A stretch of 64,000 bases of DNA. Source: Lachnospiraceae bacterium AC2031. Its GTDB lineage: Bacteria; Bacillota; Clostridia; Lachnospirales; Lachnospiraceae. This document shows, one piece after another, positions 35,888 through 42,402 of this stretch. The notes below the pieces were generated by a model, which worked only from the letters and a program-made list of their open reading frames with translations, did no database searches and was not told the origin of the DNA. The position numbers and the translations under genes are program-made. Numbering within the stretch: position 1 is the stretch's first letter; every line of letters begins with the position of its first letter. The stretch covers positions 1,302,001 through 1,366,000 of the forward strand of contig JIAB01000001.1 of the NCBI GenBank assembly GCA_000687975.1, read 5' to 3'.

Positions 35888-36301
35888 TTATCCCATATGA
35901 TCGCCGTCTTTAATCTTCATACGAGAGATAGCACGTTTAAGACTTGCCTCAGCAAGAGTATATTCTCTTACACTCTTCTTCTGCAACATAGCCTCACGCG
36001 CAGCAGCTTCCTTCTGTCTTACTCTCTCTGCATCTATCTCATATGGCCACTCAGCAGCATCTACAAGAATAAGCACTTCGCCATCCTCGATACGCATCAT
36101 ACCATCTGATACAGAAGCCTCCTGCCAGTTTCCTTCCTCGTCCATAAACTTAAGAAGACCAGGAATCACAGCAACCATGAGGTTCTGATGATGTGCAAGC
36201 ACTCCATACTGTCCATCAATAGTCGGAACAACCAGCGACTGCATAGTGCCAGAATAGAAGGTACTATCCGCTTCTATAATTTTTGCATTAAATAAATCCA
36301 T
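35888..36301 (-). CDS. atpC: F1Fo ATP synthase subunit epsilon
   Basis: Central-stalk subunit that regulates rotation. The 137-residue protein has the N-terminal beta-sandwich (FYSGTMQSLVVPTIDGQYGVLA, GVMRIEDGEVLILVDAAEWP-type region) and a C-terminal helical hairpin (RQKEAAAREAM, LAEASLKRAISRM). It is the last conserved subunit in the operon. Confidence 0.95.
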   Translation of the reverse strand: MDLFNAKIIEADSTFYSGTMQSLVVPTIDGQYGVLAHHQNLMVAVIPGLLKFMDEEGNWQEASVSDGMMRIEDGEVLILVDAAEWPYEIDAERVRQKEAAAREAMLQKKSVREYTLAEASLKRAISRMKIKDGDHMG

Positions 36302-36338: not shown

Positions 36339-37754
<1,416 letters not shown>

Positions 37755-37785: not shown

Positions 37786-38685
37786 TTACTCTTCCGCCTT
37801 ACGCTTCTTCCTCTGAGCCTTCGCACCTGCCGCAACCTCAGTAATCTCCTGAGTGATAGCAGCCTGACGAACTCTGTTATACTGAACCTTCAGATCAGCA
37901 AGAAGCGCCTCAGCATTCTTGTTTGCTGAATCCATAGCAGTCATACGCGCATTCTGTTCTGCAGAAAAACTATCTACAAGTGCGCCGTATATACATCCTG
38001 AAACATATCCAGGTATAACACGGTTGATTACCTCGTTAACATTTGGATAGAACTCGTAGTGAACATCCTTCTCGTTTCTTTCCTCCTGCTTAGTCCAGAA
38101 TTCCTTTCTGTCAAATGGGAGCAGGCGCATCATTTTAACAACTGTTGAAAACTCACTCTCCATATCACTGTAGATAACACGGATTTCATCTATCTGATGA
38201 TTATCATACTGCTCAAGCAGTATGGAACTGATCTCACGTGCTCTTGAAAATGAAGGATTCTGCGCCGTATATAAGAAGGACTTTTCCAACTCATAATGTC
38301 TACGTGTAAAGTACCTACGTCCATACTCACCAACAACATAGAGCTTAGTCTTCTTATGCTTAGCCATCTCTTCTTCTGCCAGCTTTATAACATTCTGGTT
38401 ATAAGCACCAGCAAGACCCTTATCAGCAGTAATTATCAAGTACGCATAAGTCTCCGCAGGCTTTCTACCTGTCTTTGGATAGAAGTAACGGCTGGTGATA
38501 TCTATCTCCGTCTGGAAGATACGACGAATCTCATGTTCCTGAAGCTCAAAGTAAGGTCTGGTTCTATCCAGTTCTTCCTTTGCCTTACGCATCTTCGTAG
38601 AAGAGATTAGGTACATCGCATTTGTAATCTTCTGCGTATTCTGTACGCTGCCTATTCTATTTTTAATCTCTTTTGTATTAGCCAT
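37786..38685 (-). CDS. atpG: F1Fo ATP synthase subunit gamma
   Basis: Rotor shaft linking F1 and Fo; 299 residues. The N-terminal helix (ANTKEIKNRIGSVQNTQKIT) and C-terminal helix (NARMTAMDSANKNAEALLAD, TQEITEVAAGA) are conserved. It lies between atpA and atpD as usual. The C-terminal KAQRKKRKAEE tail is more basic than in most homologues. Confidence 0.96.
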   Translation of the reverse strand: MANTKEIKNRIGSVQNTQKITNAMYLISSTKMRKAKEELDRTRPYFELQEHEIRRIFQTEIDITSRYFYPKTGRKPAETYAYLIITADKGLAGAYNQNVIKLAEEEMAKHKKTKLYVVGEYGRRYFTRRHYELEKSFLYTAQNPSFSRAREISSILLEQYDNHQIDEIRVIYSDMESEFSTVVKMMRLLPFDRKEFWTKQEERNEKDVHYEFYPNVNEVINRVIPGYVSGCIYGALVDSFSAEQNARMTAMDSANKNAEALLADLKVQYNRVRQAAITQEITEVAAGAKAQRKKRKAEE

Positions 38686-38715: not shown

Positions 38716-40470
38716 TTATTCAGGTTTATATGATTCACGGAACTTAGTCGCTGCATCTATGATTATCTGCTTATCGTCATCCGAAAGCTGACCTGTTGAA
38801 TCAATAGACTTGCAAAGCGCATCCTCTTCCTCATGGAAATATGCGAGCAGTTCATTTCTGAAATGACCTATATCATCTATCGGAAGACCAACCATAACCT
38901 TAGCTGAAGCTGCCACAAGCATAATAACCTGCTCATGAAGCTTAAATGGGTTATTCTGAGGCTGTCTCAGCAGATACATAAGTCCCTGTCCATAAGCAAG
39001 CTGTCTCTTAGTTGCATCATCAAGGTCACTAGAGAACTGTGTGAATATCTCCATCTCACGATACTGTGCAAGATCAAGACGAAGTGTACCCGCAGCCTTC
39101 TTCATAGCCTTAGTCTGTGCCGCTCCACCAACACGGGATACAGACAGACCAACGTTAACGGCAGGTCTCTGACCCGAGAAGAAGAGATCACTCTCAAGGA
39201 ATATCTGTCCATCTGTGATGGAAATGATATTTGTAGGAATATAAGCTGATACATCTCCAGCCTGTGTCTCAACTATAGGAAGAGCTGTAATACTACCACC
39301 TCCAAGCTCATCCGAAAGACGTGCAGATCTCTCCAGCAGTCTTGAATGCAGATAGAATACATCTCCTGGATAAGCCTCACGACCTGGAGACCTTTCAAGA
39401 AGAAGTGACAAAGCTCTATAAGCTATAGCGTGCTTTGACAGATCATCATACACTATAAGTACATCTTTACCCTTCCACATAAAGTATTCAGCAAGAGATG
39501 TTCCAGAATATGGAGCAATATACTGAATAGGTGCTGGTTCAGATGCATTTGCGGCTACAACTATAGTATAGTCAAGTGCACCCTTCTTCTTAAGAGTACC
39601 TACAAGCTGTGCCACACTACTTGCCTTCTGTCCGATGGCAACATATATACAGATAACATCATTATCTTTCTGATTAAGTATAGTATCCAGCGCTATCGCT
39701 GTCTTACCTGTCTGTCTATCTCCGATAATAAGCTCACGCTGTCCCTTACCGATAGGGAACATAGAGTCGATAGACAAAATACCAGTATTCATAGGAGAAT
39801 CAACTGATTGTCTCTCTACGATACCAGGCGCAGCTGTCTCAACTGCTCTATAATCGTCAGCATCGATAGGACCTTCACCATCTATTGGATTACCAAGTGG
39901 ATCAACAACTCTTCCAAGGAAGCCATCACCAACTGGTATACCAGCAGTCTTGCCAGTTCTCATAACCCTGCTGCCTTCAGTAACATCAGTATCATCACCG
40001 AAGAGGATTACACCAATATCCGATGGTCTAAGTTCCTGAACCATTCCCTTAACGCCTGACTCGAATACAACAATCTCGCCATACATTACAGACTTAAGTC
40101 CATCAACAAATACGATTCCGTCACCAACAGTCTCAACGTGACCTTCTTCCTCAGCGATAACCTGAGGCTGCCACTCTGAGATACTGCTCTTCATAAGAGA
40201 AATGAGCTCTGAACCAGAAGAAACCTTTTCTTCCTTAAGTTCACGAAGCATTCCCTCTAACTGATGAAGTCGACCTTCATTTGTCCAGTCATAGACCTCC
40301 TCGCCAACTACAAGCTTGAACCCAGAACTTAGATTCTTATCCTCTATCCACTCAAATGGAATATCTTCGCCGTACTTCTTTACGATAAAATCGGTGAATC
40401 TTTTCTTCTGAGTGGCATCAGGTTCTGCAGGAGCATAGAGCAGGGCCTTAACAATCTTTTCTTCCGCCAC
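38716..40470 (-). CDS. atpA: F1Fo ATP synthase subunit alpha with an N-terminal delta-like domain
   Basis: Non-catalytic F1 subunit; 584 residues against about 502 in most bacteria. From about residue 85 it is ordinary alpha (ELISLMKSSISEW, Walker A GDRQTGKTAIALD, SGTSLAEYFMWKGKDVL, GGGSITALPIVETQAGD). Residues 1-80 are extra and resemble the C-terminal domain of the delta subunit: AEPDATQKKRFTDFIVKKYG, then EDKNLSSGFKLVVGEEVYD and EGRLHQLEGMLREL, following the DxxLxGGfxxxVGxxxyDxSxxxxLxxL pattern of AtpH. No atpH lies between atpF and atpA. The start is GTG at 40470, with AAAGGAG inside the end of atpF. The fused domain could take over contact with subunit b. Confidence 0.93.
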   Translation of the reverse strand: MAEEKIVKALLYAPAEPDATQKKRFTDFIVKKYGEDIPFEWIEDKNLSSGFKLVVGEEVYDWTNEGRLHQLEGMLRELKEEKVSSGSELISLMKSSISEWQPQVIAEEEGHVETVGDGIVFVDGLKSVMYGEIVVFESGVKGMVQELRPSDIGVILFGDDTDVTEGSRVMRTGKTAGIPVGDGFLGRVVDPLGNPIDGEGPIDADDYRAVETAAPGIVERQSVDSPMNTGILSIDSMFPIGKGQRELIIGDRQTGKTAIALDTILNQKDNDVICIYVAIGQKASSVAQLVGTLKKKGALDYTIVVAANASEPAPIQYIAPYSGTSLAEYFMWKGKDVLIVYDDLSKHAIAYRALSLLLERSPGREAYPGDVFYLHSRLLERSARLSDELGGGSITALPIVETQAGDVSAYIPTNIISITDGQIFLESDLFFSGQRPAVNVGLSVSRVGGAAQTKAMKKAAGTLRLDLAQYREMEIFTQFSSDLDDATKRQLAYGQGLMYLLRQPQNNPFKLHEQVIMLVAASAKVMVGLPIDDIGHFRNELLAYFHEEEDALCKSIDSTGQLSDDDKQIIIDAATKFRESYKPE

Positions 40471-40953
40471 TTAACTATCGCTCCTTTCAGCATTATCAAG
40501 AAACATGTCATATGCTTCACTAGTATTACCAGCAAGAACAACCTTACGAGTTGCATCCTCAACCATAGCTGTAATATCCTTCTTAGCTGATTCTACGATT
40601 GCATTCCTCTGATTCTCAGCATCCTTCTTAGCATCTTCTATAATCTTAGATGCAGTTTCTTTTGCTTCAGCCTCTGCATTTGATCTCATAGTAGCGATAT
40701 CCATAGATGCCTTCTTCTTCTGCTGTGAAATCTCTGAGTCAACATTTTTCAGTTTCTCTTCATATTCGGCATTCTTCTGTTCAGCCTCAGATAAAATCTT
40801 CTGAGCTGTTTCATCCATTTCTTTATAATGCTCTTCTCTCTGCTGCATTATCTTCTTCACAGGAGCATATATAATAACGTACAGACCTCCAAAAAGAATA
40901 ACCACATTGAACATGTGCAGTAAAATCTGTGTTAGATCAATTCCTAATGGCAT
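40471..40953 (-). CDS. atpF: F1Fo ATP synthase subunit b
   Basis: Peripheral stator stalk; 160 residues. One N-terminal transmembrane segment (about 12-28: HMFNVVILFGGLYVIIYAP) precedes a long charged coiled coil (REEHYKEMDETAQKILSEAE onward). The length is that of an ordinary b subunit, so the absent delta subunit is not fused here. The start at 40953 is chosen over a TTG five codons upstream because GAGAGGT fits it. It ends directly at the atpA start. Confidence 0.94.
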   Translation of the reverse strand: MPLGIDLTQILLHMFNVVILFGGLYVIIYAPVKKIMQQREEHYKEMDETAQKILSEAEQKNAEYEEKLKNVDSEISQQKKKASMDIATMRSNAEAEAKETASKIIEDAKKDAENQRNAIVESAKKDITAMVEDATRKVVLAGNTSEAYDMFLDNAERSDS

Positions 40954-41040
40954 TTTCTTACCTCTCAAATATATTAAACTTACTTAACAATCTATATACT
41001 TTCTTCTTAACCTAAATATGTTAATTCCAGTTTTGTTTTG

Positions 41041-41412
41041 TTATAGGACGAATATGACAAGGATCGATACAACGAGTGCGTAAAGAACAGCTGTCTCTAT
41101 AAATACGATACCAAGAATCATAGTAGTTCTGATCTTACCCTCTGCCTCAGGCTGACGAGCAATTCCTTCAGCTGACTTACCAACGCAAAGACCCATACCT
41201 AAAGCACCAAGTCCAGCTGCAATACCAATTGAGATAGCTGCTGCAATAGCCTTACCAGCTGTTGCATTATCTCCACCCTCTTCTGCTTCAGCCTCAACCT
41301 CTGCTTCTGTCTCTGCTGCATAAGATACTGTAGCAGGTGCTGTTGCTGAGAAAAGTGCAAATGCTGCAAAGAATAACACAACTGTTAAAAGTGATTTCTT
41401 TAATAGTTTCAT
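41041..41412 (-). CDS. atpE: F1Fo ATP synthase subunit c with signal-peptide-like extension
   Basis: Membrane rotor-ring subunit. At 123 residues it is about 45 longer than usual. Residues 1-32 look like a cleavable signal peptide (MKLLKKSLLTVVLFF core, cleavage near SYA|AE), followed by an acidic stretch (AETEAEVEAEAEEGGD). The normal hairpin is residues 50-123, with loop ARQPEAEGK and ion-binding E106 in FIETAVLY. The helix-1 position that is Gln in Na+-type rings (Ilyobacter Q32) is M73 here, which favours protons; this is inference. Removal of the extension would give a standard 75-90-residue c subunit. Confidence 0.94.
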   Translation of the reverse strand: MKLLKKSLLTVVLFFAAFALFSATAPATVSYAAETEAEVEAEAEEGGDNATAGKAIAAAISIGIAAGLGALGMGLCVGKSAEGIARQPEAEGKIRTTMILGIVFIETAVLYALVVSILVIFVL

Positions 41413-41464: not shown

Positions 41465-42349
41465 CTATGCCTCTACGGCAACTTCAGTTTTCTTCTCTTT
41501 CTTTTTCTTAGGCTTCTTCTCGTGAACCTCTGATACCTCACCATAGTAAATCGATGTTAGCATCGTAAGTACGTATGCCTGTACTACAGCATGTATCAGT
41601 GTAAATAGAACACCTACAAAAACTGGAAGCACAAAGCTGAGCATCATGGTGTAATATACAAGTTCCGTTACAAGTGCTCCAGAAAGGAGTGCACAGAAAA
41701 GTCGGAAGCTCATAGATATTGGAAGTGAGAACTCCTTTAATGTAAGCACAACTCCCTTTACCTTATTCTTTCTGATACCACCAGACATAATGAATCCATA
41801 TGAGAACACACCCATTGCTATCGCTCCGTTGATATCACAAAGTGGAGCAGGCAGCGCCATAGGGTGTCCATTAGTAGTCATCCACTGGATACCAAAAAGC
41901 TCAAATATAGTTCCTAAGAATATATATGATCCTGCAGCAAATGTATATGCTCCAAGAGCCTTATTCAAATGTGGACTGTTCGTTTTGGCCAGATTATCAA
42001 AATATCCTACCCACATCTCAATAACCATCTGGAACTTACCAGGTACAGTCTTGAAACGAGGAATAGCGAATATTCTTATCATCAAAGCAATAAAAAGTAA
42101 TAATGCTGAGACAATATAACCTGCTACAAGTGAAGGGTTAACTGTAAGTCCGAAGAAGTTCATCTTGTTCTCTTCGTGAATAACAGCATCTCGCATTACA
42201 GTCTTAATCGACTCGTGAGTTCCGCCTCCCTTGTTAGTGACAAAAATGCTGACCAGGAGCAGTACCAGAACTATAGCCATCACTACGAGAAATCTGGTTC
42301 TTTTTCCTTTGTCCAAATCCTTTTTCTCCTTTCTACTAATTGGCGCCAT
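41465..42349 (-). CDS. atpB: F1Fo ATP synthase subunit a
   Basis: Membrane stator subunit forming the ion half-channels. The essential Arg lies in SMSFRLFCALLSG; PNLNKAL-type and GYFDNLAKTNSPHLN loops and about six transmembrane segments are visible. The protein has a basic N-terminal tail and an unusual Lys/Glu-rich C-terminal tail (EKKPKKKKEKKTE). The ATG at 42349 is preferred to a GTG six codons upstream, but both have weak ribosome sites. It is the first gene of the operon; no atpI is seen. Confidence 0.93.
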   Translation of the reverse strand: MAPISRKEKKDLDKGKRTRFLVVMAIVLVLLLVSIFVTNKGGGTHESIKTVMRDAVIHEENKMNFFGLTVNPSLVAGYIVSALLLFIALMIRIFAIPRFKTVPGKFQMVIEMWVGYFDNLAKTNSPHLNKALGAYTFAAGSYIFLGTIFELFGIQWMTTNGHPMALPAPLCDINGAIAMGVFSYGFIMSGGIRKNKVKGVVLTLKEFSLPISMSFRLFCALLSGALVTELVYYTMMLSFVLPVFVGVLFTLIHAVVQAYVLTMLTSIYYGEVSEVHEKKPKKKKEKKTEVAVEA

Positions 42350-42402
42350 AAAAAAACACCAAATCACATTATATAACTATTCTGTCTTTCATACAAGAAA
42401 AA

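Follow-up and report, generated by a model that had tools for sequence, protein, structure and literature searches.

The ATP synthase operon in the 64,000-nucleotide stretch of DNA analysed here (which we refer to as the window) encodes the C-terminal domain of subunit delta fused to the N-terminus of subunit alpha in one open frame, and this architecture is a member of an already described kind, deltaDeltaN-alpha. The form was engineered by Ueno et al. 2025 (PMC12229609; PDB 9jc1), who took the delta of Bacillus PS3 without its N-terminal domain and fused the rest to alpha, and their Discussion names natural examples (Acidaminococcus fermentans, UniProt G4Q3K6, A0A1I2C5T3), so the initial annotation of this DNA, which knew of no description of a delta-alpha fusion, was wrong on this point. 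We consider it probable that the window encodes a natural deltaDeltaN-alpha ATP synthase that can carry up to three b2 stalks, with a raised H+ per ATP, and can work at low proton-motive force.

A single operon for an F-type ATP synthase lies in the window. It is read from the minus strand in the order a-c-b-alpha-gamma-beta-epsilon and has the following features:

41465..42367, minus strand: subunit a (atpB), 300 aa (Pfam ATP-synt_A, E 8e-16)
41041..41412, minus strand: subunit c (atpE), 123 aa, extended at the N-terminus by a long, acidic, signal-like stretch (Pfam ATP-synt_C covers residues 56-118)
40471..40968, minus strand: subunit b (atpF), 165 aa, retaining YDMFLDNAER at its C-terminus (Pfam ATP-synt_B, E 1.3e-14)
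40481..40487, minus strand: Shine-Dalgarno-like AAAGGAG, 10 nt upstream of the GTG that starts the fused alpha
38716..40470, minus strand: fused deltaCTD-alpha gene, 584 aa, GTG start (open-reading frames, Pfam/NCBIfam, Foldseek)
40237..40470, minus strand: delta (OSCP) C-terminal domain, alpha residues 1-78 (Pfam, PDB matches, fold, dN/dS)
40147..40236, minus strand: linker and alpha N-terminal helix, residues 79-108 (predicted helix 86-98; spaced much like the engineered linker of 9jc1)
38716..40146, minus strand: alpha core, residues 109-584 and stop (TIGR00962 matches residues 87-581 with 746 bits)
37786..38685, minus strand: subunit gamma (atpG), 299 aa (Pfam ATP-synt, E 4e-89)
36339..37742, minus strand: subunit beta (atpD), 467 aa (Pfam)
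35888..36301, minus strand: subunit epsilon (atpC), 137 aa (Pfam)

These coordinates agree with the initial annotation, which had read the order as atpB-E-F-A-G-D-C with the place of atpH empty and atpF meeting atpA without a gap: no open-reading frame lies between b and alpha, and the b stop TAA (40471-40473) adjoins the alpha GTG (40470), with both genes in the same frame. A single a gene and a single b gene are present. The AAAGGAG ahead of the fused GTG is identical in all six relatives compared (L145-L148, L150, L155), and in the C-terminal motif of subunit b the residues Y, D and F are invariant in 12 of 12 aligned rows (alignment A5). Subunit a of the window also has an extra N-terminal hydrophobic stretch.

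The extension before the alpha core comprises ca. 88 residues. Positions 98-169 of the 172 in the Pfam OSCP model correspond to alpha residues 2-72, with a score of 22.3 bits, equal to the curated cut-off, for the whole protein and 27.2 bits (E 5e-6) for residues 1-92 alone. None of the NCBIfam delta models reached its cut-off with residues 1-92 (NF004403, 22.3 of 148 bits; TIGR01145, 18.8 of 57.5), as is expected of half a domain pair. A profile of the delta C-terminal domain of relatives (A2) matches PDB delta chains, the best being the engineered fusion 9jc1_I (E 3.3e-8), and when the whole protein was compared with the PDB this chain gave the only match (residues 6-573) to begin before residue 76 among the best 60 of 68 rows. 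An AlphaFold2 model of the b C-terminus with the delta domain (12 rows) gave block pLDDT values of 70-86 for the delta part, with the elements E82-86, H92-106, E112-116, E125-128, E131-134 and H137-154; its overall pTM was 0.39, and we therefore make no claim about docking. Foldseek returned six matches at E <= 0.001 for the delta-domain model, the best 28 rows were all chains of F-type ATP synthase entries, and several of the matched chains are delta, b-delta or OSCP by their PDB names. The full 584-aa model (mean pLDDT 76.9, pTM 0.71; below 50 at residues 1-4, 249-254 and 404-448) had as its top three matches chains I, K and J of 9jc1, with TM-scores by query of 0.77-0.81 over 570-577 columns at 49-51% identity.

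The delta-like stretch is under purifying selection. Across the window gene and 11 close relatives (66 pairs), median dN/dS was 0.123 for residues 1-78 (51 usable pairs), 0.113 for residues 79-108 (33 pairs) and 0.053 for the alpha core (all 66), values that are rough as dS is near saturation. Together with the profile matches to PDB delta chains and the fold, this selection makes the OSCP match more than chance, and the Pfam, profile and fold results bear out the initial reading of the extra alpha N-terminus as the C-terminal end of delta; in profiles, residues 1-85 resemble the delta C-terminal domain, a likeness on which that reading had been made to depend. A pseudogene or mis-assigned start was ruled out by the dN/dS values and the Shine-Dalgarno-like site.

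The genome that contains the window is assembled as one contig of 3.19 Mb (99.77% complete), and PF00213 (OSCP) passes its cut-off there solely at the fused-alpha locus; a second PF00213 match (E 0.117) was rejected as a delta, as it sits in an unrelated low-complexity protein. A profile of the fusion junction (A1) found the fused locus and one weak match (E 0.195). A third profile, A6, represents the delta N-terminal domain and was built from fusions that retain the full length of delta; it gave no match at E <= 1 in this genome, whilst in the same 12-genome search it matched the two genomes that carry full-length fusions, at 4.7e-38 in G082 (which contributed a row to A6) and at 3.3e-19 in G050 (which did not); in the remaining ten no match was better than 0.05. 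On the OSCP, A1 and A6 searches we rejected a separate delta gene, and likewise a delta N-terminal domain by itself, at another place in the genome, and the genome-wide search that the initial annotation had called for upheld its statement that atpH is missing.

Fusions of this sort are widespread. The window's family was surveyed in 200 genomes, and 81 loci belonging to the same alpha clade as the window, together with nine canonical outgroup loci, were typed by the length of the part preceding the alpha core. This gave 48 loci with a separate delta (nine of them the outgroup), 12 full-length delta-alpha fusions of 669-677 aa, 29 truncated deltaCTD-alpha fusions of 576-628 aa and one b-deltaCTD-alpha fusion; the initial annotation had proposed such a survey of the family. 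The full-length fusions retain a recognisable delta N-terminal domain. At least 42 of the 200 genomes carry a fusion among the matches listed, with other alpha clades covered by the nine outgroup loci only. In 30 of these 42 a further match to the OSCP family reaches E 1.1e-23 or lower (best OSCP match per genome; G075 has the value 1.1e-23 itself) and probably belongs to a second, canonical enzyme. The remaining 12 genomes lack a second OSCP match (G000, the window genome; G154, G142, G082, G130, G043, G062, G068, G137, G050, G109 and G079; completeness 87% for G154 and 81% for G137), and in some surveyed genomes the fusion is the sole F-type enzyme found.

The fusion is not confined to the window's family. 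A search of 391 genomes of the class with profile A1 found at least 36 with a stop-free match running from profile position 25 or earlier into alpha, among matches listed down to ca. 8e-14. Four of these (G000, G022, G153, G180) were already in the set and 20 more loci were inspected; in all 20 the alpha frame includes a delta-like domain, and at no locus does a separate delta lie between b and alpha, with L132 being a full-length fusion and L119 having its alpha frame cut off on a 5.5-kb contig. Across the phylum (348 genomes, matches listed down to ca. 6.5e-16) there were at least 16 such matches, plus one at a contig end in G965, where no alpha was obtained from the partial contig (L237). 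Twelve of the 16 lie outside the window's class (L225-L236), and each is a truncated fusion preceded by b; the alpha cores of L227 and L228 are identical, and L234 was typed by hand because its first-start frame reaches into b by 100 nt. Named genomes were scanned as well; of 133 loci 80 were kept, and the 79 typed by length added 36 full-length, 25 truncated and 18 separate forms, one of the last (L161) a partial frame. Metagenome assemblies account for many of these named relatives. Uncultured Lachnospiraceae bacterium RUG10561 is 99% identical to the window over residues 1-150; the truncated form also occurs in Lachnospiraceae bacterium NE2001 and LC2019, whose records are not marked as metagenome assemblies, and the full-length form in Oribacterium sinus DSM 17245 and Eubacterium coprostanoligenes ATCC 51222.

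Several other features of these operons were seen during the survey. Subunit c reaches 106 aa or more in 42 of 83 loci with truncated fusions, in none of 50 with full-length fusions and in three of 64 with a separate delta (first-start frames, so some lengths may be overcalled), and in several relatives with a long c, subunit a is 266-298 aa (also first-start frames). The fused alpha at L124:2826-4742 opens with three near-exact copies of a stretch of 20-odd residues (MNEMSDNEFRSRVASATNG). In two operons gamma and beta lie in one open frame (L126:4897-7257, 786 aa; L128:4915-7299, 794 aa), each with an in-frame ATG and a purine-rich stretch at the expected beta start; as a covalent gamma-beta chain would lock the rotor onto the stator, translation from an internal start or cleavage of the chain is expected there.

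Trees built from the alpha core without the extension suggest that the truncated form arose repeatedly. In a quick LG tree of 172 rows the truncated forms need 14 changes, at least nine of them forced by the starred branches, and in a more careful 66-row tree (C20) 13 changes, at least seven forced. The 66-row tree contains full-length and truncated sister pairs (L020/L016, support 97/97; L164/L166, 99/93; L176/L170, 97/92) and places the full-length fusion of E. coprostanoligenes (L207) as sister to the truncated L208 and L216 (100/99). Forcing 11 truncated rows into one clade apart from 14 other rows lowers the log-likelihood by 367 units (p-AU 7e-84; LG model, with the 25 rows picked after the tree was seen), and a single clade of truncated forms was rejected for the rows tested. 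A quick 59-row tree of the phylum (C20, SH-aLRT only) forces seven changes, setting apart the clade from outside the class (L225-L236, support 91), L134, L136, L137 with L138 (95), the window's group, and L133, which is sister to the separate-delta L254 (97). As regain of a lost domain is implausible, we read these patterns as repeated losses after fusion, and the sister pairs and the AU test argue that the delta N-terminal domain was probably lost repeatedly from full-length delta-alpha fusions, which fits the initial suggestion that a fusion removes the need for this domain.

The number of fusions is harder to count, as the tree backbone is weak and the count for the window's group differs between the two larger trees. 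In the 172-row tree 60 of the 66 truncated and 43 of the 47 full-length fusions fall in one clade (98); the 66-row tree, unlike this one, nests separate-delta rows among fused rows. A full-length fusion (L163) nested among separate-delta rows (100/84, 66-row tree) suggests that the fusion itself probably happened more than once. One locus (L178) has a separate delta among full-length fusions, a possible re-split of a fusion or a sequence error.

Among 78 truncated-type loci (a few duplicates, first-start frames) alpha begins exactly at the b stop in 14 and overlaps it by 4 nt in another 14, these being the commonest spacings; as speculation, such abutment would make the synthesis of alpha depend on that of b, an advantage if the enzyme requires surplus b. 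In the window and its close relatives b, delta and alpha are parted by a single in-frame TAA followed by GTG, and read-through of this stop would yield a b-delta-alpha chain, an arrangement that exists as one open frame at L041. We regard this as extremely improbable: a start with a Shine-Dalgarno-like site follows directly after the TAA, and b and alpha share a frame in only 22 of the 78 loci, the commonest spacings among the 78 being 0 and -4, which rejects read-through as a general mechanism. An internal start could instead make some alpha without the delta domain, such that one of three alphas carries it; Met93 lies near the canonical alpha start, and the gamma-beta frames of L126 and L128 hint at the use of internal starts in operons of this kind, but the conserved Shine-Dalgarno-like site ahead of the fused GTG speaks against this and we think it very unlikely.

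The triple fusion at L041:2449-4785 (G068, contig C33) joins b, deltaCTD and alpha in a 778-aa frame with a Glu/Lys-rich linker, and the operon around it encodes a, c, gamma, beta and epsilon with no separate b or delta. It is a single sequence, from the one genome of its genus available, and a sequencing error at a stop codon is possible; among the matches listed for 397 genomes of the family there was no second stop-free b-delta-alpha frame, and a 764-aa frame in G292 that was considered as one proved to be a full-length delta-alpha fusion. If true, the L041 protein would hard-wire three b chains to three alphas.

What the fusion may mean for the enzyme follows from the engineered PS3 protein, whose behaviour is described in PMC12229609. 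There, the delta N-terminal domain is placed on the threefold axis, where it allows the enzyme no more than one stalk; once this domain is removed and every alpha bears a delta C-terminal domain, as many as three b2 stalks bind, each with an a subunit, and H+/ATP was 5.8 compared with 3.0. Cryo-EM showed few three-stalk particles, for which the authors blame dissociation. We infer the stalk number and H+/ATP of the window enzyme by analogy, as its parts and their order are those of the engineered protein, with near-equal spacing to 9jc1, and the b motif is kept. Delta is here replaced by its C-terminal, b-gripping domain on alpha; with the stalk-limiting N-terminal domain gone and each of three alphas bringing its own docking domain (the three b-binding domains per F1 that the initial annotation had deduced from alpha being present three times), F1 could bind up to three b2 stalks. 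Each stalk would bring an a subunit, and the resulting rise in H+ per ATP would permit function at low proton-motive force.

Alternatively, the enzyme may bind one b2 and one a, with two of the three delta domains empty and the fusion serving only to tie delta and save a gene. The window operon does have one a gene and one b gene, and full-length delta-alpha fusions, which should be single-stalk by the logic of PMC12229609, are common (36 of 79 typed loci); as they keep the N-terminal domain, fusion alone need not mean many stalks. Against this, engineered fusion with N-terminal deletion let more stalks bind (subunits a and b up 2.2- and 1.8-fold; PMC12229609), and repeated N-terminal loss fits a change of stalk number better than thrift, although a domain left without a task could also have decayed, which would look alike. 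We judge the single-stalk arrangement unlikely, if the most serious of the alternatives, and prefer the multi-stalk enzyme. Two genomic observations leave a low proton-motive force role in the window's host in doubt. Besides the window alpha and beta, PF00006 matches a second pair of frames (608 and 465 aa) which, judged from frame length, looks like an A/V-type ATPase, as well as a 543-aa frame taken as Rho, also from its length, and one sub-cut-off match; RnfC, sought in this genome as a clue to low proton-motive force, gave no match.

More broadly, multi-stalk synthases may recur within one phylum, having evolved repeatedly by fusion of delta to alpha and later deletion of the dispensable N-terminal domain in related lineages, with H+/ATP raised each time and full-length intermediates still living, for example in O. 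sinus and E. coprostanoligenes; we offer this tentatively, at somewhat short of even chances. The authors of PMC12229609 suspected natural multi-stalk cases; for natural fusions the accessible text reports neither stoichiometry nor a structure nor activity. The survey yields many candidates for natural multi-stalk enzymes, with intermediates, sister pairs and named hosts, such that the question of whether nature builds multi-stalk ATP synthases becomes directly testable, and matched full-length and truncated pairs let the role of the delta N-terminal domain be asked.

In the open-licence literature of PubMed Central, as far as its accessible text goes, we found no other paper announcing a natural delta-alpha fusion: the GTDB-wide ProAD (PMC11738941) mentions b-delta as the sole delta fusions, PMC5709465 describes a delta/b fusion, and the accessible parts of PMC5706428 and PMC6131620 mention no delta-alpha fusion. 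The spread of fusions across family, class and phylum, the full-length fusions with repeated N-terminal loss, and the b-deltaCTD-alpha chain look new. N-ATPase (TIGR03321 b, TIGR03324 alpha) likewise lacks a separate delta, which according to PMC11738941 is absent or joined to another subunit, but there it is fused with b and the gene order is beta-epsilon-X-X-a-c-b-alpha-gamma; this different order and the scores of the window alpha (610.7 bits against the TIGR03324 cut-off of 750.5, 746.3 against 484.45 for TIGR00962) rejected an N-ATPase. The b-delta fusion of mycobacteria and Gordonia (PMC5709465) resembles the window in joining delta to a partner subunit, and a mycobacterial-type b-delta chain (PDB 7jg5_d) is a fold match of the window delta domain, but delta sits on b there and on alpha here; the 165-aa window b has ATP-synt_B as its best Pfam match and no OSCP among the best 25 of 37 families, so a fusion of the mycobacterial type was rejected. 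The deltaDeltaN-alpha of A. fermentans has the same architecture by its description in PMC12229609, in a different organism. The engineered deltaDeltaN-alpha of PS3 differs from the window enzyme in that the latter is natural, belongs to a Lachnospiraceae-type genome and is known here from genes and predicted structure; in both, the delta C-terminal domain sits on the alpha N-terminus via a short linker, the delta N-terminal domain and a separate delta are absent, and the chains, of 580 aa in PS3 and 584 aa in the window, align over residues 6-573.
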